A stretch of 25,486 nt of DNA, taken from a virus. Of the stretch, positions 4,910 through 23,642 are shown piece after piece. Location of the stretch: positions 1 to 25,486 of IMG/VR virus record IMGVR_UViG_3300030104_007254. One strand, written 5' to 3'. The translations under genes were made by a program, and so were the position numbers. How positions within the stretch are numbered: the stretch's first letter is position 1; each line of letters starts with the position of its first letter. The notes under the pieces were generated by a model, which was given only the letters and a program-made list of their open reading frames with translations, was not told where the DNA came from and ran no database searches.

Positions 4910-4918
4910 TTAAAATCC

Positions 4919-4938
4919 TTAAATTTGATAAAATTTAA
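4919..4938 (+). promoter_or_regulatory. A/T-only stem-loop just before the giant 2 start codon
   Basis: TTAAATTT and AAATTTAA form a perfect 8-bp inverted repeat around the loop GATA. It ends 3 nt before the ATG at 4942, inside the 32-nt gap between giants 1 and 2. As RNA it could hide the start region; as DNA it could be an operator. In an AT-rich genome chance cannot be excluded. No Shine-Dalgarno sequence is present. Confidence 0.35.
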
Positions 4939-4941
4939 TCA

Positions 4942-7900: not shown

Positions 7901-10900
7901 AAAATTCAGCTACAATAATAAATAGATTTGGGGTAACTGCTAAAGAAGACCCAGGTAAAATATTTAATTTTTTAATTAAGAAAATATCTGATAGTTATAG
8001 ACTAAAAGATATGGAAGAAAAAATTGCAAAAATAGATAAGCCGTGGGTAAGGCTTTTACAAGAAGCAGTAGAAAATGATCCTAACATTAAAACATTATTA
8101 TGGGCAAATATAGGCTCTAAAAATTATGCTACTTATGTAGCTATGCGAGAAGATAACGGTAACTATAATAACTTTACTTCTAACAGAAAAAAAGTAAATG
8201 ATATTATTAAAGAAGATTTAATTTCTAATTTCTTAGTTACTGATAATCCTGCTTTTTTAAAAGAAAATAATAAAGTTGATTTTGATAAATTAAATATTGA
8301 ATATATTACTTCTCAAAATGCAGACTTTAAAAATATGATGATTTATTTTAGGAGCGCAGATCAATCTACAAATACAGTCGCTTTAAAAAATGATGAATCT
8401 TTTTGGAAAGATATCGCACTAAGAGAAGAATTTTTTGAAGATGTGGTAAAGCCTTTAAATAATATAGGTATAAAAATTACTACAGATGAATTGTTAAGTC
8501 TTCTAGATATAAACGAAAGTGGTGAAGCTCTTCAAAACAAGGCTAAACAAATAGATGATATATTAACTACATTTGGAGCAGTTCTTGATGTATTAGAAAC
8601 AGGTGAAAATATATTTACTACTTCTATACCTACAGCAGAAAGATCAAGAGATAGTAGAAAAGATGCAAGAACTTTATTAGAATCTTTAGCACAAGTATTA
8701 GAACCTATTTTAACTCGTGAAGTTGTTTCTTCTTTTGTTGGTATTGGAGGAAAGGCAAAATACAATTTAATTAATTCTGCACATTTAAATAAAGAAATAG
8801 ATAAGCTTACTAATCCTGAAAGGTTTGAAGAGTATTTAGAAGAAATAGCAGAAGATCCTTTTATGTCTCAGCTACCTATAATAAAAGATCTTCAAGATGA
8901 TTCTTTAGGTTTACAAAGAGTATTGCGAGACGGTAATAGTAAAACAAGAAATAAAGGTTCATTTATTTTTGATGGGTTTACTAGAAAAGGTAAATCAAGA
9001 AGTGTCGATTATTCTAGTATGTCTGATATAGAATTAGCAGCTACAGATATGGCATTTTTTAATAGAGATGGGGCTAAAGACGCTGCTAGTTTTAGACTAT
9101 CTATGCCTTCTGATTCACCCACTGTTTTTTATATTGACGGGATTAAACTTTCTAAAGAAGAGATTCTCGATAAAATATTACAAACCGCTAAAGCAGAAGC
9201 AGCTAGAATAGGTTTAGTAAATAATTTATCAGAAGATTCTAAACTTACTTTTGTAAAAAATTATTTTAATAAGGGAAGAGAGTTTCAAGTTTTAACTTTT
9301 TTAAATAGTACTTTTGAAGATTCTAACGGTAATACTGTAGATCTTAAAAAAGCTTTTAATGAAGAAGCTGCTAAAGAAAGAATTGAAGAATTTTTTAATA
9401 GTGATATTACTACAAATGAATTTTTTAAATCACAGATAAAAAAGTTTATTCGTAAGGGAATTATTAAAAATGTTAATTCGGAAACAGGGGTAATAGAATT
9501 TTCAGAAGGAATTATTGATTCAGAGATTAAAGATAAAACAGCTTTCTTTAAAGACTATTTATTAAATCATTTTTATTATAATACTCAATTTAATTCTATT
9601 TTTAACAGAGATGCTGCTTTTTATAAAGACGCTACTGATCAACAAAAAAGAGGTAAGCAGCAAGTTAGTCCTGGAATATACCCTGCTATAGAAGGAACAT
9701 ATCGTGCGATGATTATTAAAGATGGTATTGCTTCTACTAGAAATACTCTTATTAATTACTTCTTTACAAAGATAGATGAGTCTGATACTATGACAGATTC
9801 TGAAAAAGAAGCTCTTAAAATTGTTTGGACAGCAAGAAGTCAAGAAGCTTTAGAAAAAGATCCTTCAAAATATAAAGGAAATAATATTTCTGATGGTGCT
9901 ACACTTGTAAGTATAGAACATAGAAGAAAATTTTTAGATGGTTTAGGAAGACTGGGAGAAGCAGAAAAAAGAGCATTAGATAATATAGAAAAAGGTATAG
10001 AAAGTATAGAAGATTTAATGCTTATTAATTCTCCTACAAAACCAGAAAAACCTTTTGATGTAAGTAGTTATATATTAGAAGGAGTAGAAATTCCTTTTCA
10101 AGCTAAAAATGCAGAAGTAGTTTTAACTCCTTCTTTAGCACTTAAAAAAGATTCTTCAGGACAATATATAAATCCAAAATTAGCAGCTGCTTATATGGAT
10201 ATGAATGGTCCTACTAAAAAATACGATGTTCTTTATTTTGATTCTGCTATTAAAGTAGGAGCATTAGGAGTAGCTATAAATGAAAAAGGTAATGTAGAAT
10301 TTGCAGATTATATTTACGACAGTGAAACTAATACATATAAACTTTCTCATGATAGTATCATAAACACTCCTTCAGGATTTTTAGAATTAAATTGGGCGGA
10401 CCTTAGACTACAGCAAGAAACACCAGAACATTATTCTGACGATAGATCTAATTTTGGTACACAATTGCGGAACCTTGTACTTTCTGATATTAAATTAGAA
10501 GAAGATTATGACGTTGGTGATACTATTATGACTGGTAGTGAAATAGTCCAAATGTATCAAGAATTAGTAGTACAAAACCTAAAAGAATCTTTTGAAGAAG
10601 TACGTAGAGATTTTGAAGATAAAGACGGAAATATTAATTATGATTTTTTAGTTAAAAAACTAAAAGAAGAAATTATTAATAGAGAAATGGGTAATGAGTA
10701 TTTAGAAGCTCTAGCGCCTGTACAAGAAGTTTTAGGAAATAATGGAAGTAAAACTGCTTTGCCTTTATACCATCCATTAATTTCTTATAAGATGGAATCT
10801 CTTATGAATTCTTTCTTTAAAAATAGGATTACAAAACAAAAAATTAAAGGAGGCCAGTTAGTAAATGCTCCTTCTTGGGGATTCTCAGAACAGTTAGAAA

Positions 10901-13900
10901 TTATAGAAGACCCAGACACAGGAGGTATTATTTTTGAAGCACTTATTCCTTGGACATCTAGAAAATTATTCCCTACGAATAAGGATGGAGAAATAGATAT
11001 AGATGCTATAAGAGAACATGCTCCTGAACTTTTAGATATTGTAGCAAACAGAATTCCGACGGAAGATAAATATTCCATGTTCTCTATTAGAGTAAAAGGC
11101 TTTACTCCTCAATCTATGGGAGGAGTTATTATAATGCCGCCAGAAGCACTTACTATATCAGGGTTTGACTTTGATATTGATAAGTTATTTTTTATGGCCA
11201 GAGAGTTTAATATTGATCAAAAAGGTAATCCTAAAGTGATCAAGTTTTATGATACAGAAATTAAAGAAGACATAAATGAAGTAGCTAAAAATATATTTTC
11301 TAGTTTCAGAGATTTTAAAAGATTTTTATACAAAACTAATTTTGCAGAAGAATATATAGAAGGTCTTTTAGAACTTAAAAGACAAGGTATAGATGTTATA
11401 AATGATGCTAGACAAGGTAAAGAAGATACTTTTAATTCTAAAGAGCATAAACAAATTATGCTAAAAATAGGAAAATTAAAGCTTGCTAGAAAAAATTCAG
11501 ATAACCAAGGAGCAATAGATAAGTATACAGAAGATATTGATGAGTTATACGCAACTATGGAAGAAAACTATGCTCCTTTTAATGAAGAAATTGCTTTAGT
11601 AGATAAAACTAATTTAGCAGTTATTGATGAAATAGCTCAAAAAATTGAAGAAGGAATAGAAAACGGAACTTTTAATGTTGTAGATTTTAATGGTAAAAGA
11701 GCTAGAAATAATCAATTAATAACCCTTATAGAAAGCATACTAAGAAGTAGGCATACTGTTGATTCTATAGTGCAAGTTGCAGATACTGCTCCTTTAATAG
11801 ATAAAGGAAATCAAATAGTATTGTTTAAAGCAGGTTTGAAAAAAGAAGCTAGAACTCTTAAAGGAGAAGCTCTTAAAGCTAGGGCAGAACAAATTAAATC
11901 AGAAGACCAAAATATAAATTATCCATCTACTCAATTAGATTTCTTTAGAGCTAACATGGATGGTAAAAAACTTATTGGCCCTTTTGCAAACCATAACACG
12001 CATCACGCAAAAGCACAGTATACTAATTTAAGATTACGCGAACCTATTTTTATTAATGGAAAATTTTATCAACGTCTTAATTTACCAGAAGTAGACGGAG
12101 TTAGGATCTCTAGAACTTTAGCAACTAACTTAGCAGCTATTGTGGATAACACAAAACAACCTGTAGCAAATCCTTTAAACATGAACGGATTTACTATTGA
12201 TGTGATTGCTTTTCAAAACAGATTGGGAGTGCCTCAAGACTTTACATATGCTCTTTTGAATCAACCTGCTATGATTGAGCTTACTCAAAAATATTTTAAT
12301 GAGCAAGGATCTTTAAGTGAGGAAAAGCAAATTAATGAGTTTAAAAAAGAATTAAGAGATAAACTTGTAGAAAAATTAAAAGAAGAAGGTATTAAAGACG
12401 GAGATGCTGTTTTAAAAAAATTAGAAGATATAGTTTTAACTACCCAAGTATTGGAAGATAACATATATCCTGGTGATTCTTTAGAACATCTTTATATACA
12501 AATGCAGGCAATACAATTTTTTACAGCTCAAAAAGAAATTGCTTTAGAACTTTCTAGAGGAGTGCAAGCAGGTAAAGTAGATACTCAAGGAGTAGGACCT
12601 AGTTCTGCTAACAACTTTGTTTTGTTAGAAAAACAAAAGTTAATCAACGACGCAGAAATAGAAGAAACTTCTATGATTGAAGGACTTGATCAAATCTTTA
12701 TGCCTAGATTATCTGGACAAATAATGATTCCTGCATTTAATGAATATGGCATTAGGCTTCCTTCTAACATAATGAATAAAATATTCCCTGCTTACGGTAC
12801 AGTAGAAACTATGGAAGAAGGGAATAATGATACTGTATACTCTGCTTTAGGCCATATTAAAAGAAAGATGGGGGCTAATAAAAGATCAGGAGTTCTTACA
12901 GAAAAAGAAACCAGCATGGTAGATATGCAATTTATGAATTTTGTATCAAGTGCTTTTCCTTTCTTTAAGTATTCAGAAAATAAAGATATGATTCTTAATT
13001 TTCCTAATGAATTTAGAGATTTTAAAAACTCTTTGCCAGAAGATTCTCCATTAAAATTACTATTCGATCAAATATATATAGTACAACCCGATGGGTATTC
13101 TTTAATACCTAGGTTAGAATATTATAATACAGGTAAAAATTCTATAGACCATTATTTTGTAAGACAAACTTGGGAAAGGATGTTATTAGATTCTAATCCT
13201 AAAATAAAAGATTTTGCTCTTAAAATGATTAAGTATACTTATTTTGCTAATGGATTAGGATACGGAGCTAAATCGTTTAGTAATTTGATCCCTGTTAAAT
13301 TTTATACAGATGATTATCAATTAAAAAATAACATAGTAGATAGTCAAGGAAATACTTTTAATCAGTTTTTACAACAGTCACTTTATTCTAATAAGTTTGA
13401 AAAAGGAATTAGTTTATTTGCTAAAAGATTTTATGATCAGTTTTATAGAAATTTTGCAAACTCTCAAGGTTTTGTTAAAAGTGTTAGGATTAAAAAACAA
13501 GTTATTACTGAAAATCAACTTGCAAATTTAAGTCCTTTAGAAAGAACTAGATTAGAAACACTTACTGCAGCTAACAGTAAAGAAGGAGCAGTAAAAACAA
13601 GTAACGGAAATTTAGTACTTAACAGAAGAAAACATGGAGATTTACTTACTAGATATAATGATGGTTTTCCTGTAGAATATATTAAAGTATTTAGGCCTTC
13701 TAGATATTCTGATTTTGGAAATAAAATACCTGATGCTTATAGAGTAGATATATATAAGTTAGATAAAAATTCTATATCTCAAGGAATACAAAATCCAAAT
13801 GCTTATGAAGGAAGAGAAGGATTAGATACTTGGACATATACTCCAGTAAGTAACTTAGGATTAGATAATATTTCATTAGAATTTAATTTTGCAGAAGATA

Positions 13901-15093
13901 TAGAAAATACTGCTTTAGCTCTTGCTCCTGATATTAGAAAACAATCTGCTATAGATACTATTAAAAATGGACAAATGACTGCAGAAGAAGCGCAAGCTTT
14001 AATGGAAATGGAAGCTATGAATACTACAGTTCCTATTCAAAGTTTAAGTTCTCTGACAAATAGTACAGAGCAAAAAATAGAAAAAAGCTATGAAAAAGGA
14101 TTAAAAGCTTTGCAATCTGTTAATAAAAACAAAGATAATATTGAGCTTAGTGCTGACGAAGAATTTTATGTACACAAAACTAAAAAAGATGAAAACGGCA
14201 AGCCCATACAATATGAAAGAGTAACTAGCTTTATTACTGGTGGAAAGAAAATACCAGATACTCCTTTAATTAATTCAGCTACTACTATAGGAACTAAAGT
14301 AGATGAATTTATTAGAGACTTTTTTGAAATGGATTATTTTTTGTTTGATTTTATTGACGAATACGTAGAAAAATATGATTTTGCTCCTAAAGAAGATTTA
14401 ATAAATCTTATTAATAAACTTAATAGCATAAAAGAAGTAATGGACAAAAGAGGAGAAGAAGTTTTTGCTAACGATATGTTGCTTGCAGTAGAAAATTTCC
14501 AAGGTACAGGTAGAAACGTAGCAGGAACTGTTGATCTTATTAGTGTAGACAAAAAAGGAGTTATTAGAATATATGATGTTAAAACTATGAGAGGCAATCA
14601 ATTTACTAATACTCATAGTTCAGGAATAAATAAAGGTAAATCTAAATATTATCATAGATATTCAGAAACAGAGCTTTCTAATGCAGAAAAACATCAGAGA
14701 CAACTTTCTATGTATGCTTTATTGTTAGAAGAATCTGAAGGAGTAGTTACTGATAATATAGGAGTAATTCCTTTTGAAATTGCTTACGAACCAGGAGATA
14801 CTACTACTAGTACAATAGTACCTCTTTCAGGAGTTCCTTTTAATAAATTGGAGTTAGAAGAAATAATAACTGAAGAAGTAACAAAGAATCCATTAGCAGG
14901 ATTAGCAGGTATTGATTCAGCAACTACTGATAATGTTGCTAAAATGGCCGCTACTCCTTATAGCAGATTTTTAGAAGCTTTTAATACTTTGAGCGAATCA
15001 AAAAGAAAAGCTAACTTTATTACAGAAGACGAGTTTAATAAGCTTAATTCTGAAGAACAAAAAGAAGCTTTACTACAAATAAAAAAATGTTAA
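4942..15093 (+). CDS. Giant protein: zincin metalloprotease, crAss-like virion RNA polymerase and PD-(D/E)XK nuclease
   Basis: This 3,383-aa multidomain protein has three recognisable parts. First, a zincin-type metalloprotease motif HEAFH (644-648) with a likely third ligand in EVEELLAD (E700/E701). Second, a single-chain RNA polymerase core: TKQKIKGG at 1964-1971, NRIPT at 2036-2040 and the Mg-binding loop D2076-F-D2078-I-D2080, matching the DFDID loop of the phi14:2-type virion RNAP and analogous to NRxPT and DFDGD of beta-prime. Third, a C-terminal RecB-like PD-(D/E)XK nuclease with D3198, D3212-V-K3214 and Q3254-x3-Y3258. The first ~500 residues are unassigned, with a low-complexity linker near 335-350. 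The start at 4942 follows an A/T-rich gap without Shine-Dalgarno. In studied crAss-like phages this polymerase is packaged and transcribes early genes after injection; that role here is inferred. It is much longer than the phi14:2 homologue, about 2,200 aa as I recall. Confidence 0.93.
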   Translation: MACEYWYDGKFRTEEEFKSILENGLLDQLIRDKTVSLAAFEIDPTKIKNGVAKEPVSLRVLRKIDSNINNKVDPDSGQHIFQNPLKAIEDFNKQQKNKKKGLKLKFAIKVKDKIYTGEGKENLALAQELNDTAKRKGGLNVADSLQEGAVYMLVPSSYGMYPIKLFTNKVEDTELKGDLKKMLLELKKGDQKMVDSVNDFFLKNFYRLTAKDKKSSGVVYDSKKDIFYITRFSPEAKQFVTKEFKTVDDAFNFLGNLLYRIDYTKINKGDYNIKVAENKAVKTDVFVEGGSFFHSPSLVIQAYTMSDEDVKNQQKVLELFVPTEKLNASEVTSQEANKNKTNKSGETQGPLFNAPVTSLKELAEKEKTEERKITYTPKGKTPQTYTIDATGDTPKIFNSKGKEVFKKDSGDRRAIFAKLAVEEGRGSVINYQGNKYIVSDKNKDIFSVTTKKIMKWGPENGNRKAILDLYEKKKQTPVETKSEQKLPPGLEQIAKEQPDVTQDLASIIPGAVSETPITYEDSSTDWDQFNDLAGGEEDFNRSTPNDGKKRAKDLDKKIQAFGWTKQQEIDWLIDMLGDAFLKGTQGKQRAIKMFDSFDKLKKYLPQESYEQLLEARKNGEELYGLFTNAAVLISQNAPAGVIFHEAFHVVFNLVLPLDKRIDLIYEAFEKYKDELPNIDTGKKDADGNPIMRLPTFLEVEELLADKFMDYTISLEKSKTGIEGLDKTFKGMNRMIKTFFSPDGVSIDGIFMDINLGRYVNQVQFKDTVLSRSIRQKSDASEEATNPQKKYLDPLAEKDALEYTTVLFDEAIEIANKKLDPEGTRNLSNTEIIREFGFDGILALIVTRGTNEYLKNKNLPADKQKVNPENQKLFLDVLTNNQQSLDLDFYKEKKILRFKSVNDFVRRFGIYLQRKGIYIKLDGSNEVTNTIDSTDYSEIDSLSELESGEETSDSVAMRANVEIDPRESMSEKLKNLFATFPRYKSARKNSATIINRFGVTAKEDPGKIFNFLIKKISDSYRLKDMEEKIAKIDKPWVRLLQEAVENDPNIKTLLWANIGSKNYATYVAMREDNGNYNNFTSNRKKVNDIIKEDLISNFLVTDNPAFLKENNKVDFDKLNIEYITSQNADFKNMMIYFRSADQSTNTVALKNDESFWKDIALREEFFEDVVKPLNNIGIKITTDELLSLLDINESGEALQNKAKQIDDILTTFGAVLDVLETGENIFTTSIPTAERSRDSRKDARTLLESLAQVLEPILTREVVSSFVGIGGKAKYNLINSAHLNKEIDKLTNPERFEEYLEEIAEDPFMSQLPIIKDLQDDSLGLQRVLRDGNSKTRNKGSFIFDGFTRKGKSRSVDYSSMSDIELAATDMAFFNRDGAKDAASFRLSMPSDSPTVFYIDGIKLSKEEILDKILQTAKAEAARIGLVNNLSEDSKLTFVKNYFNKGREFQVLTFLNSTFEDSNGNTVDLKKAFNEEAAKERIEEFFNSDITTNEFFKSQIKKFIRKGIIKNVNSETGVIEFSEGIIDSEIKDKTAFFKDYLLNHFYYNTQFNSIFNRDAAFYKDATDQQKRGKQQVSPGIYPAIEGTYRAMIIKDGIASTRNTLINYFFTKIDESDTMTDSEKEALKIVWTARSQEALEKDPSKYKGNNISDGATLVSIEHRRKFLDGLGRLGEAEKRALDNIEKGIESIEDLMLINSPTKPEKPFDVSSYILEGVEIPFQAKNAEVVLTPSLALKKDSSGQYINPKLAAAYMDMNGPTKKYDVLYFDSAIKVGALGVAINEKGNVEFADYIYDSETNTYKLSHDSIINTPSGFLELNWADLRLQQETPEHYSDDRSNFGTQLRNLVLSDIKLEEDYDVGDTIMTGSEIVQMYQELVVQNLKESFEEVRRDFEDKDGNINYDFLVKKLKEEIINREMGNEYLEALAPVQEVLGNNGSKTALPLYHPLISYKMESLMNSFFKNRITKQKIKGGQLVNAPSWGFSEQLEIIEDPDTGGIIFEALIPWTSRKLFPTNKDGEIDIDAIREHAPELLDIVANRIPTEDKYSMFSIRVKGFTPQSMGGVIIMPPEALTISGFDFDIDKLFFMAREFNIDQKGNPKVIKFYDTEIKEDINEVAKNIFSSFRDFKRFLYKTNFAEEYIEGLLELKRQGIDVINDARQGKEDTFNSKEHKQIMLKIGKLKLARKNSDNQGAIDKYTEDIDELYATMEENYAPFNEEIALVDKTNLAVIDEIAQKIEEGIENGTFNVVDFNGKRARNNQLITLIESILRSRHTVDSIVQVADTAPLIDKGNQIVLFKAGLKKEARTLKGEALKARAEQIKSEDQNINYPSTQLDFFRANMDGKKLIGPFANHNTHHAKAQYTNLRLREPIFINGKFYQRLNLPEVDGVRISRTLATNLAAIVDNTKQPVANPLNMNGFTIDVIAFQNRLGVPQDFTYALLNQPAMIELTQKYFNEQGSLSEEKQINEFKKELRDKLVEKLKEEGIKDGDAVLKKLEDIVLTTQVLEDNIYPGDSLEHLYIQMQAIQFFTAQKEIALELSRGVQAGKVDTQGVGPSSANNFVLLEKQKLINDAEIEETSMIEGLDQIFMPRLSGQIMIPAFNEYGIRLPSNIMNKIFPAYGTVETMEEGNNDTVYSALGHIKRKMGANKRSGVLTEKETSMVDMQFMNFVSSAFPFFKYSENKDMILNFPNEFRDFKNSLPEDSPLKLLFDQIYIVQPDGYSLIPRLEYYNTGKNSIDHYFVRQTWERMLLDSNPKIKDFALKMIKYTYFANGLGYGAKSFSNLIPVKFYTDDYQLKNNIVDSQGNTFNQFLQQSLYSNKFEKGISLFAKRFYDQFYRNFANSQGFVKSVRIKKQVITENQLANLSPLERTRLETLTAANSKEGAVKTSNGNLVLNRRKHGDLLTRYNDGFPVEYIKVFRPSRYSDFGNKIPDAYRVDIYKLDKNSISQGIQNPNAYEGREGLDTWTYTPVSNLGLDNISLEFNFAEDIENTALALAPDIRKQSAIDTIKNGQMTAEEAQALMEMEAMNTTVPIQSLSSLTNSTEQKIEKSYEKGLKALQSVNKNKDNIELSADEEFYVHKTKKDENGKPIQYERVTSFITGGKKIPDTPLINSATTIGTKVDEFIRDFFEMDYFLFDFIDEYVEKYDFAPKEDLINLINKLNSIKEVMDKRGEEVFANDMLLAVENFQGTGRNVAGTVDLISVDKKGVIRIYDVKTMRGNQFTNTHSSGINKGKSKYYHRYSETELSNAEKHQRQLSMYALLLEESEGVVTDNIGVIPFEIAYEPGDTTTSTIVPLSGVPFNKLELEEIITEEVTKNPLAGLAGIDSATTDNVAKMAATPYSRFLEAFNTLSESKRKANFITEDEFNKLNSEEQKEALLQIKKC
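6820..7200 (+). other. Zincin metalloprotease domain (intact HExxH) in giant 2
   Basis: The motif H644-E-A-F-H648 sits in a hydrophobic helix context. It is followed about 52 residues later by EVEELLAD, where E700 or E701 would be the third zinc ligand, and then by another helix. This order is typical of gluzincin-like phage metalloproteases. Possible jobs are maturation of giant virion proteins or cleavage of host proteins after delivery; neither can be decided from sequence. Confidence 0.7.
10750..11230 (+). other. RNA polymerase catalytic core in giant 2 (NRIPT ... DFDID)
   Basis: Three blocks occur in beta-prime-like order: a basic TKQKIKGG stretch (1964-1971) in the place of the beta-prime segment before the barrel, NRIPT (2036-2040), and the metal-binding loop DFDID (2076-2080) after a PPEALTISGF segment. 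The Gly of the cellular DFDGD is replaced by Ile, as described for the crAss-like virion polymerase family. Bridge helix and trigger loop could not be placed with confidence. Confidence 0.88.
14220..14750 (+). other. PD-(D/E)XK nuclease domain at the C-terminus of giant 2
   Basis: A segment ATTIGTKVDEFI resembles the helix-1 motif of RecB-like nucleases. It is followed by GTVDLI (D3198), IYDVKT (D3212, K3214) and RQLSMY (Q3254, Y3258). This is the complete order of active-site elements of the RecB/Cas4/lambda-exonuclease group. It sits in frame with the polymerase, so the nuclease would travel with it unless cleaved off. Confidence 0.78.
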
Positions 15094-15094
15094 T

Positions 15095-18000
15095 ATGCAT
15101 TGTATAAATATAAACCATCCTGATTATAAATTTCTTTTAGAGAACTCTGGGCAATCTCCAGTTGCTTTAAAAGCAAAAATATCTATATGGATGAATAAAT
15201 ATGGTACAGATAATTTTCCTACACTATCTCAGTTAAATTTAGGAACAGATTTAATGTATCAAACTCCTAATGGAAGAGCTTTTGCAGAACAAGCAAAAAG
15301 AATATTTTTTGATGATGTATATGGCAAAGATCCAAAAACACTTAATGTTGAAATCATTAATAAAAAGCTTCAACAAATTTCTAGTAGAATAGGAGATGTT
15401 CCTTGGAATCTTAGAATGAGTAGAAAAGGTAATTATTATATTGCAGGTTATAAGAATATGCCTGTAACAATGGATGATTATTTTTCTCCATATGCACAAG
15501 GATTTTTTAGACAGCTACGATCTCAATCTACTGAAGGAAAAATAGAAAAGCTTGACAAAAAATTATTAAGTTGGGCTCGTAAACATGGTATTTCTGTAGA
15601 AGCAATGAAATCTGTTATGGAAAAGTTTCCTAATAGATATGAAAAATCTGCTTTAGGTGTAGCCGATTTTGCTAAAAATTTAATAGCAATTGCAGATGGG
15701 GCTAAGATAGATACTATGGCAGAAGAAGTAGCGCATTTTGCTGTAGAAATGTTGGTAGAACAAAAAAATTCTAACATACTTAATGCTATTAATAAAGTAT
15801 CAGAAACAAATACTTATTCTGAAGTTCAAAGAGAATATAAAGGAATATATAAAAAAGAAATTGATTTTAGAAAAGAAGCTCTTGGTAAATTAATTGCGGC
15901 AGAAATAGTTACTCAGTTTCAGTTAACAGAAAAAATGGCAAGTAGATCTGGTTTATGGCAAGGTATTAAAAAAGCTATAACAGATTTCTTTAATTTTATA
16001 GGCAGTAAACTTCGTAAAAAAACAGCTGCAAGAATAGAACTTAATTCTGCTATAGTTCCTTTAGCAAAATCAATTTTAGCAGAAGAGTCTTTAGGAAAAC
16101 TTGGGGCTAATAAATTTACTAAAAAAGATATTAAATATCAAAAAGAAGAAACGTCTAAAAAAAATAACATACCCGATAGTTCTATAAGTGCTAAAGAAAA
16201 ATTCTTAACAGATGCTGTTAAAAATTTAGAAAGTAGGATAGACGCATTACAAACTTCTAATAAAGGAGATCTTGTAAATAAACTAAAAAGAGAAATAAAA
16301 AGTCTTACTGAGCAAATTGAAAAACAGCAATTAGATTTAGGTATTGCTTCTTTTGTTTCGCTTGCAGAAAAAGAAATAGATGCATTATTAGAGACTATGA
16401 ATAATAGTATAGATAATGGTACTCCTATTAGCGAAAATAACATGGAACTTATTAGAGGATTTAATGAGATGTATAACGGCCTTTTTACAGGAATTACTGC
16501 TGATTTTATTAATGCAGGATTATCTAAAGAAGAGCGAGAAGAATTGTCTACTAATTTTGATAATGTAGGAAGTAAATTAAATAGATCTATTAGTTTAGCT
16601 TTTAAAATTACTGATGACCAATCAATTAATACTGCTGAAGCGGGCAACACAGATGCTTACGGAAATAAAATAGACCCAAACCAAGACAGCGAAGAACTTG
16701 TTAAAACTGCTAATTACGACAGAGTAAATGTTTGGAGATTTAATGCAGGTAATTTTAAATATGCAGATTCAGTTGCTATCACTACTGCTTTAAAATTAAT
16801 TAACGATCAAGTAGGTAAAGTCAAAAGATTTGCTGTAAGACTAGCTAACAATATACTTAAAAGTCAAGAATCTTTTATGCTTAAATATAAGCAAGAAGAC
16901 TTAGTAGAAAAAGATTCAAATGGAAAACTAACCCATAACTTTATTAGAAAATATAATATGACAGAATATTATGGAAAACTTAATGAAGTTAAAAAAGAAA
17001 TTGCAGAAGAATTAGGCTATGAAAATGAAAAAGGAGAAATTTCTTACGCAGCTATTCCTTTTGATCAATTGTCTTCAGAAGAAAGAAAGTATAAAAAAGA
17101 AAGATTAGCAAGATTTTTTAAAGAAAATAGTAAGATAACATATGAGCAAGAAGAATCAGGAAATGTTATAGAAGTAAGAGTTCCAAATGACACATATCTT
17201 AATAAAGATTTTGAAAGATTAATGGCAGATCCTGTGTTTAAAAATCATTATGATTTAATTATTAAAACAAAACTAGAAGCGCTTCAATTATTGCCTACAA
17301 AATATAGAACTGAGAGGAATTTATATTTGCTTCCTGGTGTTATGAAAAGTTTTTTAGATACTTTATCTAATAGAGATATCAGTGTTATGAAAAGATTAGG
17401 ACAGCTTACTGAAAAAGCTTTCTTTGTAGATGCAGATGACACACAATTTGGTCAATTAAATTTACTTAATAATAAAATGGTTCCTATCCATTTTACAGGT
17501 AAGATAGACGATTTAAGTACTCTTTCCTATGATATAGGAAGAACAATAGTATTGTTTGCAGAAATGGCAAAAAACTTTCAAGAGATGAGTAGTATTGCAG
17601 GAAAAATGCAAGGATTACAGTCTACTTTAGGAAGAAGAGAGTATATAGATAAAGGAGTTAAGAAAACTTCTACAGAAACAAGAGAGTATAAAGCTTTAGA
17701 ACATTTAATAGACACTAATCTTTTTGGAATAGAAAGAGATGCTATAGGTGTAGAAATTACTACAGATAGTAAAATAGGTAAAGCTATTCCTAGTTTAGTA
17801 GGAAAAGAGTTTTCTTGGACTAAATTTTCTCAAGCAATTGCAGGCTGGATTAGAAATAACAACCTTGCTTTTAATTTTGTATCATCTACTGCAGGTTGGT
17901 TTAAAGGATCTATAGATAAATTTATAGAAGAGCATACAGGATTATATACAAATCATGATAGCGCTCTTTATGCTAAAAAAGAATTTTTAGAAAATATAGG

Positions 18001-19315
18001 ACAAATATTATCACAAACAGGAAAAATAAAACAAACTAATAAGTTACATCTAATATTACAAGAGAATGAAGTAGCAAAATTAGATGTTATGTTATATGAA
18101 ACTGGTAAAAGCAGAGCTGCTAGAAAGCTTCTTACAAAAGATATAGCATATACTACTTTTTCTGTAGCAGATTACGGCATTAAAGGAAGAACGGCAATAG
18201 GCATATATGATAACCATAGATTATACAAAGGCCAATATTTAACTAGAGCTCAGTATTTAGCAAAAACTGCTTCTGAACAAAATGTAAAAAATGATGGTGT
18301 TCATGAAAAAAATATGAAAGAAGATTGGAAAAATCTTAGAGAAAAAAGTTTATACAATTCATATGAAGTAGTTGATGGCATTTTACAAGTTAAAAAAGAG
18401 TTTCAGCCTTATGTAACAGAAGCACTATTAAATTCTGTTAGAGGAAAAATTCAACATGTTGCTAGTACTCTTGACGGTGTGTTAGGAAATATTGATAAAG
18501 GAGCATTATCTAGACAAATATTAGGAGATTTTTTATTAATGCATAGAGGTTGGGTAGTTCAATTAATAGATACAAGATTTAGAAAACAAAGTTATAATAA
18601 ACTATCTGGAGAAGAAGAATTAGGAAATTATAGAGCATCTTTAGGATATTTAAAAGATATTTTTGTAAACGATCAAGGTTTTGGATTTGCTCCATTCGCT
18701 GCTTACAGTAAATTAAATTCTGTAAGAAAAAGAGGAGTTATAAAAAGCGTAATGGATCTTGGTTTTCTAGTCGTGGCTTCTATAATGGCAGCCGCTGTAA
18801 ACTTAAAAGCAGATGAAGAACCAGATGACTGGATGATGCAGCTTATGGCATATCAAATGAATAGAATTCTTTTAGAGCAAAATGCTGCTTGGTCAATAGG
18901 AGAATTTGTAGAAATGGTTGATGAACCAATAGCAGGATCTAGACATTTTAAAGAATGGGCAGACATTTGGGGATATTTTAGTAATGAGGAGATTGAAAGA
19001 GGAATGTATAAAGGTAAGTCTAAATGGCAAAAAAAATGGATGAAATTTACTCCTATTAAAAACTTATATGAATTACAATATCCTGATGAAAAAAATAAGT
19101 TTATTAAAACAGTTGTTAAGTCTGCATTATATGAAAATTTATCAGATGATGATAAAATGGGGTTAACAGATATATTCTTTAATTGGTTGTTGCCTTATAA
19201 TGATGCTAATTATTGGGAAAATCTTAGTCAAGATGAACGGGATGATATTTTATCAGATTTAATAGACGAAGCTGCTCAAGAACAAAATGGCGAATATAAT
19301 AGATTTAATGGGTAA
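15095..19315 (+). CDS. Giant virion-type protein with damaged zincin module and hydrophobic helix
   Basis: This 1,406-aa protein starts 1 nt after the giant 2 stop (TAA-T-ATG), so translation is probably coupled. The N-terminus (1-50) has a helical segment ending in FPTLSQL. Residues about 190-310 look like a zincin whose motif reads E210-E-V-A-H214 instead of HExxH; a possible third ligand is E261 and a following helix ends near DFFNFIGSKL. A likely coiled coil spans about 368-440. The remainder is helical and unassigned. A hydrophobic segment around 1220-1237 (LGFLVVASIMAAAV) may insert in a membrane, followed by an acidic and Trp-rich tail. Its place after the virion polymerase suggests another packaged or ejected protein; this is inference. 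I cannot name a catalytic activity for it. Confidence 0.88.
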   Translation: MHCININHPDYKFLLENSGQSPVALKAKISIWMNKYGTDNFPTLSQLNLGTDLMYQTPNGRAFAEQAKRIFFDDVYGKDPKTLNVEIINKKLQQISSRIGDVPWNLRMSRKGNYYIAGYKNMPVTMDDYFSPYAQGFFRQLRSQSTEGKIEKLDKKLLSWARKHGISVEAMKSVMEKFPNRYEKSALGVADFAKNLIAIADGAKIDTMAEEVAHFAVEMLVEQKNSNILNAINKVSETNTYSEVQREYKGIYKKEIDFRKEALGKLIAAEIVTQFQLTEKMASRSGLWQGIKKAITDFFNFIGSKLRKKTAARIELNSAIVPLAKSILAEESLGKLGANKFTKKDIKYQKEETSKKNNIPDSSISAKEKFLTDAVKNLESRIDALQTSNKGDLVNKLKREIKSLTEQIEKQQLDLGIASFVSLAEKEIDALLETMNNSIDNGTPISENNMELIRGFNEMYNGLFTGITADFINAGLSKEEREELSTNFDNVGSKLNRSISLAFKITDDQSINTAEAGNTDAYGNKIDPNQDSEELVKTANYDRVNVWRFNAGNFKYADSVAITTALKLINDQVGKVKRFAVRLANNILKSQESFMLKYKQEDLVEKDSNGKLTHNFIRKYNMTEYYGKLNEVKKEIAEELGYENEKGEISYAAIPFDQLSSEERKYKKERLARFFKENSKITYEQEESGNVIEVRVPNDTYLNKDFERLMADPVFKNHYDLIIKTKLEALQLLPTKYRTERNLYLLPGVMKSFLDTLSNRDISVMKRLGQLTEKAFFVDADDTQFGQLNLLNNKMVPIHFTGKIDDLSTLSYDIGRTIVLFAEMAKNFQEMSSIAGKMQGLQSTLGRREYIDKGVKKTSTETREYKALEHLIDTNLFGIERDAIGVEITTDSKIGKAIPSLVGKEFSWTKFSQAIAGWIRNNNLAFNFVSSTAGWFKGSIDKFIEEHTGLYTNHDSALYAKKEFLENIGQILSQTGKIKQTNKLHLILQENEVAKLDVMLYETGKSRAARKLLTKDIAYTTFSVADYGIKGRTAIGIYDNHRLYKGQYLTRAQYLAKTASEQNVKNDGVHEKNMKEDWKNLREKSLYNSYEVVDGILQVKKEFQPYVTEALLNSVRGKIQHVASTLDGVLGNIDKGALSRQILGDFLLMHRGWVVQLIDTRFRKQSYNKLSGEEELGNYRASLGYLKDIFVNDQGFGFAPFAAYSKLNSVRKRGVIKSVMDLGFLVVASIMAAAVNLKADEEPDDWMMQLMAYQMNRILLEQNAAWSIGEFVEMVDEPIAGSRHFKEWADIWGYFSNEEIERGMYKGKSKWQKKWMKFTPIKNLYELQYPDEKNKFIKTVVKSALYENLSDDDKMGLTDIFFNWLLPYNDANYWENLSQDERDDILSDLIDEAAQEQNGEYNRFNG
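15660..16020 (+). other. Degenerate zincin-like module in giant 3
   Basis: EEVAH (210-214) occupies the HExxH position with the first zinc ligand changed to Glu. E261 in RKEALGKLIAAE is the possible third ligand, and an IKKAITDFFNFI helix follows. Order and spacing resemble the intact module of giant 2 (Glu-to-Glu distance about 50 here against 56 there). It is probably catalytically impaired and may serve as a structural or binding domain. Confidence 0.45.
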
Positions 19316-19380: not shown

Positions 19381-20274
19381 ATGAAACTTATAGAACACGC
19401 TAATAATATCCACGAATTAAAACTTGAGGGTAACAAAGCACGCATTGCAATGTTTTCAGATATTCATTGGGATAATCCTAAATGTGATTGGAAACTATTA
19501 AAAAAAGATTTAGATTACTGTGTAAAAGAATCTATTCCTATTCACATTAACGGAGATATGTTTTGTCTTATGCAAGGCCGTGGTGATAACAGAAAAAATA
19601 AATCTGATATACGCCCAGAACATAACAATTCTAAATACTTAGACAGTATTGTAGAAACAGCAGTAGATTGGTGGTCACCCTATTCTCATTTACTTACAGT
19701 TATAGGCTACGGAAACCATGAAACAGCTATTATCAAATTTCAAGAAACAGATATACTAGCTAGATTTGTAAAACTTCTTAATCTAAAAAACCACACTAAC
19801 GTAATGACTGGTGGATATGGTGGTTGGTTTGTAGTAAATCAAATAGTAAGAGCTAAAAAGAATTCAAGAGATTGTACAAGATCTATTAAAATAAAATATT
19901 TTCACGGATCAGGTGGAGGTGGTGTAGTAACAAAAGGAGCTCTTAACCTCACTAGAGCATTAGAAATGTATGAAGACTTTGATGTATTTACTATGGGTCA
20001 TATACATGAAAACGCTGCTAGAAATGATGTAAGAGATGTTTGCACACAAGGTGGCAGTGCATATAGACATGTACAAAAACAACTCCATATGATGATTACA
20101 GGAACGTACAAAGAAGAATATGGATCAGGCAGTAAAGGGTGGCACGTAGAACGTGGCGCACCCGTTAAACCAACAGGAGGTCGTATTTTAACTATACAAT
20201 ACAAACGTAGTTGTACTAAAGAAAAAGGAGATTTTCATTTATGTCAAGTAGATTCTTGTAAATTTCCTTTATAA
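19381..20274 (+). CDS. Calcineurin-like metallophosphoesterase
   Basis: This 297-aa protein carries the full metal-binding set of the calcineurin-like phosphoesterase superfamily in order: D27-I-H29, G58-D59, G111-N-H-E114, H175 and G206-H-I-H209. These residues bind two metals and hydrolyse phosphomono- or diesters. Family members include the Mre11/SbcD nucleases and nucleotide phosphatases; no capping or DNA-binding extension is visible, so the substrate is unknown. A Gly-rich stretch after H175 and a Cys-containing tail are specific to this protein. The start follows AAAAAATCAAT with no Shine-Dalgarno. It is the last plus-strand gene, 65 nt after giant 3, and its stop overlaps the convergent 82-aa gene by 6 nt. 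A cytoplasmic role in phage or host nucleic acid metabolism is likely but inferred. Confidence 0.9.
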   Translation: MKLIEHANNIHELKLEGNKARIAMFSDIHWDNPKCDWKLLKKDLDYCVKESIPIHINGDMFCLMQGRGDNRKNKSDIRPEHNNSKYLDSIVETAVDWWSPYSHLLTVIGYGNHETAIIKFQETDILARFVKLLNLKNHTNVMTGGYGGWFVVNQIVRAKKNSRDCTRSIKIKYFHGSGGGGVVTKGALNLTRALEMYEDFDVFTMGHIHENAARNDVRDVCTQGGSAYRHVQKQLHMMITGTYKEEYGSGSKGWHVERGAPVKPTGGRILTIQYKRSCTKEKGDFHLCQVDSCKFPL

Positions 20275-20526: not shown

Positions 20527-21390
20527 TTAAAAGATGTATCTAATTTTGTTCCACGGTATTATTTCGTCGTGGAGTGCAATAAATTGCTGAATGAATTTCT
20601 TCTTTAAAGATAGTTTATATCTTACATTTTCACCACCATATTGCGATATTTTATTTTCTTGAATTTCAGGCATCCATAATACCTTTTCTGCTTCTGAATG
20701 ATCTTTAAGATTAGCTATATGTTTTTTATAGTTATGGGTCAAAAAGATAACTTCTGCGAGCACTTCGTCTTTGTAGTCGACATAATCATTAACCATCTCA
20801 AATAACTCTCTGTAATCAGCTCGCCATCCTTTGTATACTATAACAGGACTAAAGTTTATGTGCACATCATAACCTGCGTCAATGAATGCATCTATAGCTT
20901 TAATTCTGTCAATAATTTTAGAAGTACCTGGCTCATGTATATCAGATAATTTTTGAGGCATTAAGCTGTATCTGATTCTAATTTTCTTTTTAGAGTCATA
21001 ATCTATAAGATTAGGATTTACATACTTTGTAGCAAATGAACCCATTGCTATCGGATGATTTTTAAAGAAATCAAATATCTTACGCCAGTCATAGAATCTA
21101 GCATGTAATGCAAAATCTTCATTGCAGCTAATATCATAAGTAGTCAATACAGGGTGTGTTTGGTTAGGTTTGTCAACAGGAGTAAAGTAAACGTGATTGT
21201 TTATAGCTGTAAGAATGTCTCCTATATTCTCTGCTACATCTAAACCTTTAGGTTTGTGTCGTTTCATATAACAGTAACTACAGTTATATAAACAGCCGTA
21301 GCCAAAGCTAGGACTAATAAAATCTGTGGATCTGCCAGAAGGGCGGATCAACATAGACTTTCTTTTAATTTTTTTAAGAACTTTTGCCAT
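20527..21390 (-). CDS. Radical SAM protein of the spore photoproduct lyase (SPL) family
   Basis: This 287-aa protein has the radical SAM 4Fe-4S motif C33-x3-C37-x2-C40 in the form GCLYNCSYCY, characteristic of the SPL-like group. Further SPL-like blocks follow in order: a Cys in YDISCNED (C89), in the place of the Bacillus SPL H-donor Cys in its CTSD segment; GSFATKY; RYSL; EPGTSKIIDRIKAIDAFIDAGY; SPVI; a WRADYRELFE block; and a C-terminal YGGENVRYK...KIRYIF block. SPL uses S-adenosylmethionine to split the spore photoproduct thymine dimer in UV-damaged spore DNA. The protein is shorter than Bacillus SPL (about 340 aa), mainly at the N-terminus. A DNA repair or other radical reaction is plausible, but the substrate is unknown, since Bacteroidota do not sporulate. 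The start follows ACAAAAA directly after a terminator-like hairpin. Family call strong, function open. Confidence 0.87.
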   Translation of the reverse strand: MAKVLKKIKRKSMLIRPSGRSTDFISPSFGYGCLYNCSYCYMKRHKPKGLDVAENIGDILTAINNHVYFTPVDKPNQTHPVLTTYDISCNEDFALHARFYDWRKIFDFFKNHPIAMGSFATKYVNPNLIDYDSKKKIRIRYSLMPQKLSDIHEPGTSKIIDRIKAIDAFIDAGYDVHINFSPVIVYKGWRADYRELFEMVNDYVDYKDEVLAEVIFLTHNYKKHIANLKDHSEAEKVLWMPEIQENKISQYGGENVRYKLSLKKKFIQQFIALHDEIIPWNKIRYIF

Positions 21391-21396
21391 TTTTTG

Positions 21397-21427
21397 TAAA
21401 TAAAAAGGGCCCGCGTTAACGAGCCCT
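21397..21427 (-). terminator. Rho-independent terminator (minus strand) between the 203-aa gene and the SPL-like gene
   Basis: Read on the minus strand, AGGGC (21427-21423) pairs with GCCCT (21410-21406), with a small inner CG:CG pairing and an apical loop containing GTTAA. The tract TTTTTATTT follows at once. The GC-rich stem stands out in this AT-rich sequence. It lies 39 nt past the 203-aa gene stop and ends about 6 nt before the SPL-like ATG, so SPL expression would need read-through or a promoter inside the gap. Confidence 0.7.
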
Positions 21428-21428
21428 C

Positions 21429-21443
21429 AGATTAATATAATCT
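21429..21443. repeat. Inverted repeat AGATTA-ATA-TAATCT
   Basis: A perfect 6-bp inverted repeat with a 3-nt spacer lies directly beside the terminator hairpin. It could be a small operator or a weak RNA stem. On the minus strand, TTGATT and TATTAA with a 17-nt spacer overlap this region and weakly resemble a sigma70-type promoter, although Bacteroidota use different promoter boxes. Confidence 0.35.
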
Positions 21444-21460
21444 AAACTGCACCCAATCAA

Positions 21461-21483
21461 GGGGACTATCCAAAGAAGTCCCC
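21461..21483 (-). repeat. Hairpin over the stop codon of the 203-aa gene
   Basis: GGGGACT (21461-21467) and AGTCCCC (21477-21483) form a perfect 7-bp stem with a 9-nt loop. The hairpin covers the last codons and the TAG stop of the 203-aa gene. No T-tract follows on either strand, so it is not a classical terminator; it may protect the 3' end of the mRNA or form part of a larger fold with the two inverted repeats next to it. Confidence 0.5.
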
Positions 21484-22077
21484 TGTTGGTGTTAATTTTG
21501 AATTTGTTGTATAATTAGAAATTACTTCATTTGTTAATATTTCTGTTGTATTGTTTATAATAGGCCATACTTCTTGATCATATAAATGAGCAGGTGACCC
21601 AGGATTACTAAGACGGTCTTCCCAACTTTCTTTAAGAACAATTGCCTTATTTAATATAAGAGGCAGTGTGTAAGATTTCCCTGAAAAGTAATGGTTAGCA
21701 AGAATAAGCTTTTTACCATTAGCAGTAACTTCAGAGTATTTACCGTTTATAATTAAATTAAAGTCGTTATTATAGTCTGTAGGAATACTAAATATAAATA
21801 CAGTGCATTCTTTAATATCATAGTCATCTACAAAATTAGGAAATGCTTGTACAGTTGTATAAAATTTATCAAAATCTGTATCTCTATATCCGCGAGCTAG
21901 TACATAAATATAATTTTCTTCTTCGTATTTACTGATTGTATCATTTTTTAGATAAGCATTAAGGAATCTAGACTTATGTTTAAGTCGACCCCAGCTATCT
22001 TGTATATGACAATCAAACAAAGACTTTGGTACGTTTAGTAGCGGAAACAAAAATGTTGCAGTTTTTGTAAATTTCAT
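21466..22077 (-). CDS. Unknown 203-aa phage protein with IP-x-DY ... GKYS motif
   Basis: The ATG follows the TAG stop of the nuclease gene with no gap (TAG-ATG), so translation is almost certainly coupled. The protein looks soluble, mixed alpha/beta, without signal peptide or membrane segment. A block FSIPTDYNNDFNLIINGKYS (96-115) resembles small phage proteins of unknown function that share an IP...D...GKYS pattern; I know no assigned role for them. The tail after about residue 185 is Asn/Thr-rich. The gene uses TAG as its stop, which lies in a strong hairpin, and a terminator follows, so it probably ends the upstream transcription unit. Its place behind RusA-like and RecB-like genes suggests a part in recombination or replication, by context only. 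Confidence 0.75.
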   Translation of the reverse strand: MKFTKTATFLFPLLNVPKSLFDCHIQDSWGRLKHKSRFLNAYLKNDTISKYEEENYIYVLARGYRDTDFDKFYTTVQAFPNFVDDYDIKECTVFIFSIPTDYNNDFNLIINGKYSEVTANGKKLILANHYFSGKSYTLPLILNKAIVLKESWEDRLSNPGSPAHLYDQEVWPIINNTTEILTNEVISNYTTNSKLTPTGDFFG

Positions 22078-23148
22078 CTATAGTCGTATTGTAGTTTTAC
22101 CTTTAGTATCGTATTCCATTGGATAATCCCAAGCATCATATTCAGTAGCATATTTAAAGCGTTTGATTGCTTGGTAAAAACCTTCTAGGTTTTCTTTAAT
22201 TTTAGGAACTTTATCTACATTACCGTATAAACCTGTATTAATAACTTCTTTACTTATTTCAAACACCATAGGAGGGTTTTTCAAGAAAGTCTCCACTACA
22301 ATATACAACATAGGTTTAAAACTATATCCTTCGTGATAATAACTTTTAAGTCTATCATCATAAGATTTATCTCTAGTCAAACCTAAACTATATACAGCTG
22401 CCTGAAAGTCGTATCTAAAATGCCAGAAACTATTTTCAAAGTTAAGAACAGATTTACTAGTAGTTTTGAAGTCAATCGGAGTTATAGTTTTTTCTTCATG
22501 ATTAACTATAATTCTATCTAACTCGCCTTTAAACTCTAAATGTTCATATTCAAACACAACTACGTGTTTATCTATGATTTCTATATTAGGGTCGTCAGAT
22601 TTCTTTTGACAATATTTACTAGTATGCTTATCAGATCTAAGAGCCATAACACAGTTAACTGCTTTAGCATATTCAGACTCTGTAATTATAGTCTTGGTCC
22701 CACATTTTTTAAGAATATCAAAATACTTAGAACCTTGTTCTATAATTTTATTAACTCTTGTTTCATCTTTCCATCTAGGTTGGTAGAGCTCATAATTACA
22801 ATGATTTAGTATTTCTTCTGGATAGTCTTCTAAATTTGTAGGAGAATCCTCAACAGATGCATCGTATAATTTATCTTCAGCAATAGCAGATTCATATATT
22901 CCCTTAACTATTTTAGCAATAGTCTCAGACACTCCTGTATCATCAGGTATAACCGCATACTTCTTATCAAAAGCTTCTTTAGACTCGGTCAACATCATAT
23001 CTACTAGTGAGCCAAACACAAAATGTTGCTCACTAGATTCTACTCTTGCTTCTTGTCTTTCTTTTGCCTCGACATATGCTTTAGGACTAATCAATATTTG
23101 TTTTAAAGTGCTTTGATTAAGAGCACTAATTGTTTTATAATCTATCAT
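22078..23148 (-). CDS. RecB/Cas4-like PD-(D/E)XK nuclease
   Basis: This 356-aa protein has the active-site order of RecB-type exonucleases: a helix-1 block HFVFGSLVDMML (42-53), G-E-L-D211, I-D226-F-K228 and Q249-x3-Y253. Such proteins cut DNA with Mg2+, often as 5'-3' exonucleases that prepare ends for recombination; related phage proteins are annotated as exodeoxyribonuclease VIII-like or Cas4-like. I see no four-Cys cluster typical of Cas4 (Cys are few and scattered), so an iron-sulfur cluster is unlikely. The ATG overlaps the TGA of the RusA-like gene (ATGA) and the TAG stop abuts the ATG of the 203-aa gene, so the three form a tightly coupled operon segment. A role in phage recombination or replication is probable. 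Confidence 0.85.
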   Translation of the reverse strand: MIDYKTISALNQSTLKQILISPKAYVEAKERQEARVESSEQHFVFGSLVDMMLTESKEAFDKKYAVIPDDTGVSETIAKIVKGIYESAIAEDKLYDASVEDSPTNLEDYPEEILNHCNYELYQPRWKDETRVNKIIEQGSKYFDILKKCGTKTIITESEYAKAVNCVMALRSDKHTSKYCQKKSDDPNIEIIDKHVVVFEYEHLEFKGELDRIIVNHEEKTITPIDFKTTSKSVLNFENSFWHFRYDFQAAVYSLGLTRDKSYDDRLKSYYHEGYSFKPMLYIVVETFLKNPPMVFEISKEVINTGLYGNVDKVPKIKENLEGFYQAIKRFKYATEYDAWDYPMEYDTKGKTTIRL

Positions 23149-23642
23149 CTTCTCTTGATTGTTTTTATTTTATAAACTAATTTTCTGTTTCTTAGATTAC
23201 TTACAGGAACAAATTCATATTGAGTTCGTCGTAAGAATTCAACAGTGTCGTCAGGAAGTATACCTTTCTTTATTAATACATCGTCCAAGCACTTTATCCA
23301 TATCAAAGCTAGATTACCTATATCCCAATTTGGTTTATAGTTATCTGCTGGCGGATTCCAACTCGTCTTTCTTTTTCCTGTTTTCTTATCTTTTATCATT
23401 TTCATAACTCCATAATTTACGGGTGCATATACTGTTAACTTTGTTTCAACGGGGGTATCTATACTTAGATTATCGGGAATATGTTTTTCAATAAATCCGT
23501 GCATGGCAGCTACAAGAGCTGCCCTAGTTGTATAGTGCACAGACGCATGAATTTTATTATATCCGATCTTTACCCAATTGTTTTTACTAACAGGTATATG
23601 CGTTATGAATTCAGGAAATTCTAATTTAATTTCACTTACCAT
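23145..23642 (-). CDS. RusA-like Holliday junction resolvase
   Basis: This 165-aa protein matches the RusA pattern in its second half: W-D107-I-G-N110, then CLD120-D121-VL, then LPD131-D132-TVEFL, which parallel the PDxDN, DAL and DD blocks of RusA. RusA dimers cut Holliday junctions symmetrically with Mg2+. The second Asp of the PDxDN block appears to be Gly109, so the metal site may be rearranged. The start at 23642 is preceded by TTAAAAACAA instead of a Shine-Dalgarno site. It lies 15 nt after the 392-aa gene and shares ATGA with the nuclease gene. It is probably used to resolve branched DNA in replication or packaging. Confidence 0.8.
   Translation of the reverse strand: MVSEIKLEFPEFITHIPVSKNNWVKIGYNKIHASVHYTTRAALVAAMHGFIEKHIPDNLSIDTPVETKLTVYAPVNYGVMKMIKDKKTGKRKTSWNPPADNYKPNWDIGNLALIWIKCLDDVLIKKGILPDDTVEFLRRTQYEFVPVSNLRNRKLVYKIKTIKRR

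Follow-up and report, generated by a model that had tools for sequence, protein, structure and literature searches.

The window, by which we mean the whole stretch of DNA that was analysed, is a virus record of 25.5 kb. It carries a gene for a radical SAM protein of the spore photoproduct lyase (SPL) family, which lies between a metallophosphoesterase gene on the + strand and a run of exonuclease VIII-like and RusA-like genes on the - strand (Table 1). An ORF of 82 aa separates the metallophosphoesterase gene from the SPL gene. Ahead of the RNA polymerase-like ORF lie two very large ORFs of 1601 and 3383 aa (window positions 104-15093, + strand). The 24-nt block found just upstream of the SPL gene, GCAGTTTAGATTATATTAATCTGA, was identical in the seven closest relatives among the matches listed (L002-L008) and did not occur a second time within the window, while the hairpin that follows the block varied in sequence with its pairing kept. 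The block may be a promoter or a processing element.

Table 1. Features of the window around the SPL-family gene.
Feature	Position	Strand	Basis
1406-aa homologue of crAss001 protein annotated 'putative RNA-polymerase subunit'	15095..19315	+	protein match
Metallophosphoesterase (matches PHROG described as DNA repair exonuclease)	19381..20274	+	profile matches
SPL-family radical SAM protein, 287 aa	20527..21390	-	Pfam, NCBIfam and PDB searches, predicted fold
Codon of C89, predicted H-atom donor (= C141 Bs / C140 Gt)	21124..21126	-	alignments
[4Fe-4S] motif C33-x3-C37-x2-C40, codons 33-41, including relay tyrosines Y39 and Y41	21268..21294	-	sequence alignment; roles from PMC3742179
24-nt block followed by terminator-like hairpin, just upstream of SPL gene, between 203-aa gene and SPL gene	21405..21450	-	comparison of relatives
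203-aa protein, function unassigned, upstream neighbour	21466..22077	-	ORF, Pfam
PD-(D/E)XK / exonuclease VIII-like nuclease, same strand as SPL gene	22078..23148	-	profile matches
RusA-like protein (weak match)	23145..23642	-	profile matches

The preliminary description had placed an SPL homologue here, with the cluster motif CxxxCxxC (C33, C37, C40) and a further cysteine, C89, in 'ISCNED', and the ORF, its coordinates and both motifs were found as described. The protein matched the Pfam SPL family (PF20903) with 87.7 bits (9.3e-25), above the gathering cut-off of 27 bits. The NCBIfam family TIGR03886, 'spore photoproduct lyase family protein', gave 316.5 bits (2e-94; equivalog cut-off 437.55), and the true SPL family, TIGR04070, gave 86.1 bits (equivalog cut-off 400 bits), so that both equivalog scores stayed below their cut-offs. 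Geobacillus SPL was recovered from the PDB at 2e-13 with the single sequence and at 7e-19 with a profile. Judged by these searches, the SPL match of the phage ORF is far above chance. In the phage protein the match begins at about profile position 61, and the ~60 N-terminal positions that precede it in the TIGR03886 and SPL profiles have no counterpart.

An AlphaFold2 model built from 24 homologues (pLDDT 86, pTM 0.87) was compared with known structures. The six best Foldseek matches of the predicted model in the PDB were all Geobacillus SPL (E 5e-20 to 3e-18, TM 0.83-0.86), and the next was DesII at 4e-4. VIA-align gave SPL a Z of 28.8 over 277 of the 287 residues, followed by RlmN as the next family with a Z of 14.8; SkfB, SuiB and viperin were weaker fold matches. 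At the level of a predicted model, the SPL fold of the phage protein and its membership in the SPL superfamily were thereby confirmed. A characterised non-repair radical SAM family as the closest homologue had been named beforehand as the outcome that would speak against an SPL, and no such family matched better.

C89 of the phage protein falls within 'YDISCNED' and lay over the H-donor cysteine of SPL in both alignments with 4fhc, the single-sequence and the profile one. The earlier proposal that C89 is the equivalent of the Bacillus SPL donor thus agrees with these alignments and with that of the predicted fold; they pair it with C140 (Gt) and C141 (Bs), the residue that donates an H atom to the thymine allylic radical (PMC3742179, PMC5368176). 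In the same proposal the spacing from the last cluster cysteine had been put at about 49 residues here and about 44 in Bacillus; the C40-C89 spacing is indeed 49, and the C98-C141 spacing of B. subtilis SPL is 43 by the numbering of PMC3742179. Y39 and Y41 were aligned by sequence with Y97 and Y99 of B. subtilis SPL, where Y99 and Y97 help to return the radical towards SAM (PMC3742179, PMC5368176).

Exactly four cysteines, C33, C37, C40 and C89, were invariant among 106 distinct phage-type proteins (C89 in 106/106), as were Y39 and Y41. The four align with SplB and with 4fhc, which gives the phage type the four-cysteine signature of SPL; B. subtilis SPL has four conserved cysteines (PMC3742179). 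Retrieval bias as the cause of the invariance of C89 was ruled out, because 105 of the 106 proteins contain a retrieval seed peptide other than the C89 peptide and all 105 keep C89. When the phage type was compared with SplB and with a second SPL-like subfamily from bacteria, 24 positions, S88-C89 among them, were invariant in all three. The median dN/dS of 65 pairs was 0.08, which indicates strong purifying selection on the gene.

As compared to SplB of Bacillus and Geobacillus (TIGR04070; PDB 4FHC/4FHD), the phage protein shares the fold, the CX3CX2C motif, the relay tyrosines and the aligned H-donor cysteine, but is only ~20% identical and is devoid of ~60 N-terminal residues and of SplA or any sporulation context. 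The closest named family is TIGR03886, whose members on Deinococcus, Methylobacterium, Roseomonas, Aureimonas, Nonomuraea, Kitasatospora and Streptomyces replicons are 39-43% identical to the phage protein and have motifs such as SLMP, LTHN and a C-terminal RYxF in common with it. In contrast to the phage type, these bacterial proteins have a longer N-terminus and carry Glu at the donor column, in all 17 that were examined (L098-L102, L111-L116, L120 and L131-L135, which include five sampled Pseudomonadota genomes). Their only other conserved cysteine, at the column of phage N281 near the C-terminus, was present in 15 of the 17. The view that many SPL-like proteins have no equivalent of the donor cysteine is therefore borne out by the closest bacterial subfamily, and the retention of C89 is informative because that family has Glu at this site. 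Ordinary membership of the phage protein in TIGR03886 was rejected, since its score is below the cut-off and its donor-site residue is different.

Cysteine at the donor column was found in SplB and in the second SPL-like subfamily (Granulicella, Gloeothece and a second Roseomonas gene). The latter resembles the phage protein in its donor cysteine (FEASCYTD type) and both tyrosines, but is only ~23% identical to it and groups with SplB. Several genomes have one Glu-type and one Cys-type SPL-like gene, and on a Roseomonas plasmid (L114, 2299-4420) the two lie in overlapping tandem. Two near-identical chromosomal copies from Bacteroidota (L088, L122) have the donor cysteine, the short N-terminus and the PWN C-terminus of the phage type, whereas their cluster motif is two residues longer, CX3CX4C (CLGGCRDSYC). 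This type of protein is 47-48% identical to two IMG/VR loci that were retrieved with it. The tree had a branch supported at 100/100, with SplB and the second subfamily on one side and the phage type, the Glu clade and L088/L122 on the other. Members of the Glu clade formed one group (95/85), while the phage group was less firm (62/95). On the simplest reading, the phage lineage would have kept the ancestral donor cysteine and the Glu clade would have changed it. A displaced H-donor cysteine has a precedent in SPL of C. acetobutylicum, where the conserved C74 faces the pocket from the opposite side (PMC5368176); a similar role for the C-terminal cysteine of the Glu clade is a speculation.

Two scans of IMG/VR gave at least 593 and at least 552 confirmed relatives, in overlapping sets. 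One copy per locus was present in all 121 phage-type loci that were inspected, three of which came from MAG contigs. The gene is thus widespread in uncultured phages, in hundreds of them, of which at least some are crAss-like; the majority of the SPL-carrying contigs are fragments. Among INPHARED phage records there were no close relatives and only two weak matches, both from human-gut phage contigs (L136, L137). These are distant radical SAM proteins (24-25% identical) that carry Tyr in the donor column and probably represent another radical SAM family. A scan with the Deinococcus protein confirmed no viral relatives of its Glu form, and none was confirmed among viral contigs for a Kordia-MAG protein. 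In the literature searched, of which coverage was incomplete, no paper was found that describes an SPL from viromes or crAss-like phages.

The 1406-aa protein of the window matched crAss001 and other crAss-like phages, with Cellulophaga phages among the matches, and by this marker the window phage is assigned to the crAss-like phages. When 25 long SPL contigs were searched with the same RNA polymerase-like marker, 6 matched, so the idea that all of them are crAss-like by this marker was not upheld. A wider crAss-related membership of the SPL-carrying phages is nevertheless likely, because the crAss-like phages cr108_1 and cr111_1 were among the nearest isolates to PolA of one marker-negative contig. 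Bacteroidota, as the hosts generally given for crAss-like phages, are the putative hosts here.

A replication or recombination family was present within 4 kb of the SPL gene in 90 of the 114 loci with enough neighbours, the families being DnaB-like helicase, primase, PolA, SF2 helicase, Holliday-junction resolvase, Sak4, 5' exonuclease and metallophosphoesterase. Within this broadly shared array the gene occupied varying slots, such as between DnaB and Sak4, between a small Zn-ribbon-like gene and VWA, next to RIIA or next to the SF2 helicase gene. From so many different slots it follows that the gene was moved or gained repeatedly, yet stayed in the replication module.

An SPL in the phage of a non-sporulating host had initially been taken to suggest a different lesion, tightly packed capsid DNA as the substrate or a new radical reaction. 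By itself, an SPL outside sporulators is no anomaly, because numerous bacteria that do not sporulate have relatives, and for some of these there is evidence that DNA damage regulates the gene (PMC3323433, PMC12029717). UVC induces an SPL-family gene in Curtobacterium, a non-sporulator (PMC12029717), LexA sites are predicted for splB homologues in alpha- and beta-proteobacteria (PMC3323433), and splB homologues are present in desert Deinococcus and absent from D. radiodurans (PMC3314630). Among the bacterial relatives we found genes adjoining dinB and a uracil-DNA glycosylase gene, one next to a cryptochrome/photolyase-family gene, one next to a DEAD/DEAH helicase gene with a DUF790 gene, and one two genes away from a DdrO-type regulator. 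Desiccation pushes DNA towards the A-form and UV-irradiated dry DNA yields spore photoproduct (SP) (PMC12029717), which is the closest published support found for SP outside spores. For SP formation in capsid DNA no evidence was found in the literature searched, and likewise no biochemistry of the phage-type SPL lineage.

We consider it reasonably likely that the gene product is a working DNA photolesion lyase of the SPL kind, carried by the phage and reversing SP or a near relative of it in incoming virion DNA. SPL-type chemistry is well supported by the aligned residues and the predicted fold, and since all known radical-handling residues of SPL are in place, the SPL-carrying phages probably repair their own sun-damaged genomes with this SPL-like enzyme. 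The [4Fe-4S] cluster on C33/C37/C40 would cleave SAM, and the resulting 5'-deoxyadenosyl radical would abstract H6 of a covalently linked thymine dimer, of which SP (5-thyminyl-5,6-dihydrothymine) is the most likely one; the dimer bond would then break. C89 would return an H atom to the thymine allylic radical, and Y41, aided by Y39, would hand the radical back so that SAM is regenerated. Expression from the replication module would probably fall early in infection, and the enzyme would reverse directly and without light, either ahead of replication or in its course, the UV dimers that arrive with the tightly condensed genome of the virion. We infer, in this scheme, catalytic activity, the substrate, lesion formation in virion DNA and early expression. 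SP itself appears the most likely substrate, because the full set of SP-cleaving residues is kept. Against the SPL reading stand the low identity to true SPL (~20%), a score of 86 as against 400 bits, and the missing ~60 N-terminal residues; moreover, Glu takes the place of the donor Cys in the bacterial subfamily that is nearest among the named ones, so a shift of substrate or chemistry may have occurred within this branch.

The same Cys/Tyr relay might instead reverse another DNA lesion, for example a dimer that is mixed (T/C) or contains U, or some other base adduct, the SP label being inherited from spores. The relatives in non-sporulating organisms, several of them tolerant to UV or desiccation (PMC12029717, PMC3314630), would fit this, as would the distance of the family from SPL and the difference between phage virions in water and spores. 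The complete SPL catalytic set is conserved, however, and SPL of B. subtilis binds and cleaves SP, not cyclobutane dimers, as PMC12029717 relates from a reference cited there; we regard another lesion as unlikely, though worth keeping in mind. The catalytic set has, to our knowledge, SP as its sole substrate.

Base modification is frequent in phages, and the protein might instead modify DNA, for instance by chemistry at the thymine methyl group that protects phage DNA. RlmN, the next fold family, is a radical SAM RNA methyltransferase, and the altered donor site of the sister clade points to a chemistry that can shift. The SPL match is far stronger than that to RlmN, though, and the donor cysteine and both relay tyrosines are retained; the neighbours scanned were mostly replication or recombination enzymes or unknowns, with no recognised base-hypermodification gene among them. 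Base modification, which the preliminary description had also raised, gained no support, and we hold it to be quite improbable. Radical SAM folds are versatile, as the weaker matches to SkfB, SuiB and viperin illustrate, so that the likeness to SPL could be merely ancestral in an enzyme acting on a protein or small molecule; but the conserved residues are specific to SPL, the gene was found repeatedly among replication genes and the scanned neighbours included no biosynthetic genes, which makes the chance of this slighter still. Both base modification and non-DNA chemistry are less likely than direct reversal of a UV dimer.

The phage SPL-like enzyme is a compact relative of SPL, with which bacterial spores reverse UV damage in their DNA. 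The broader proposition, that a large lineage of uncultured crAss-related phages reverses UV dimers formed in capsid-packed DNA and that SP is a relevant lesion of virions, is put forward tentatively, as somewhat less probable than its opposite. If it is true, many phages would own a dark, direct-reversal repair by SPL chemistry, and SP, hitherto associated with dry DNA and spores, would also be a biologically relevant lesion in virions. The SP yield of tightly packed virion DNA under sunlight would then become a directly testable question. The Cys of the phage type and the Glu with a C-terminal Cys of the bacterial type offer a natural pair for studying how a radical relay is rewired.
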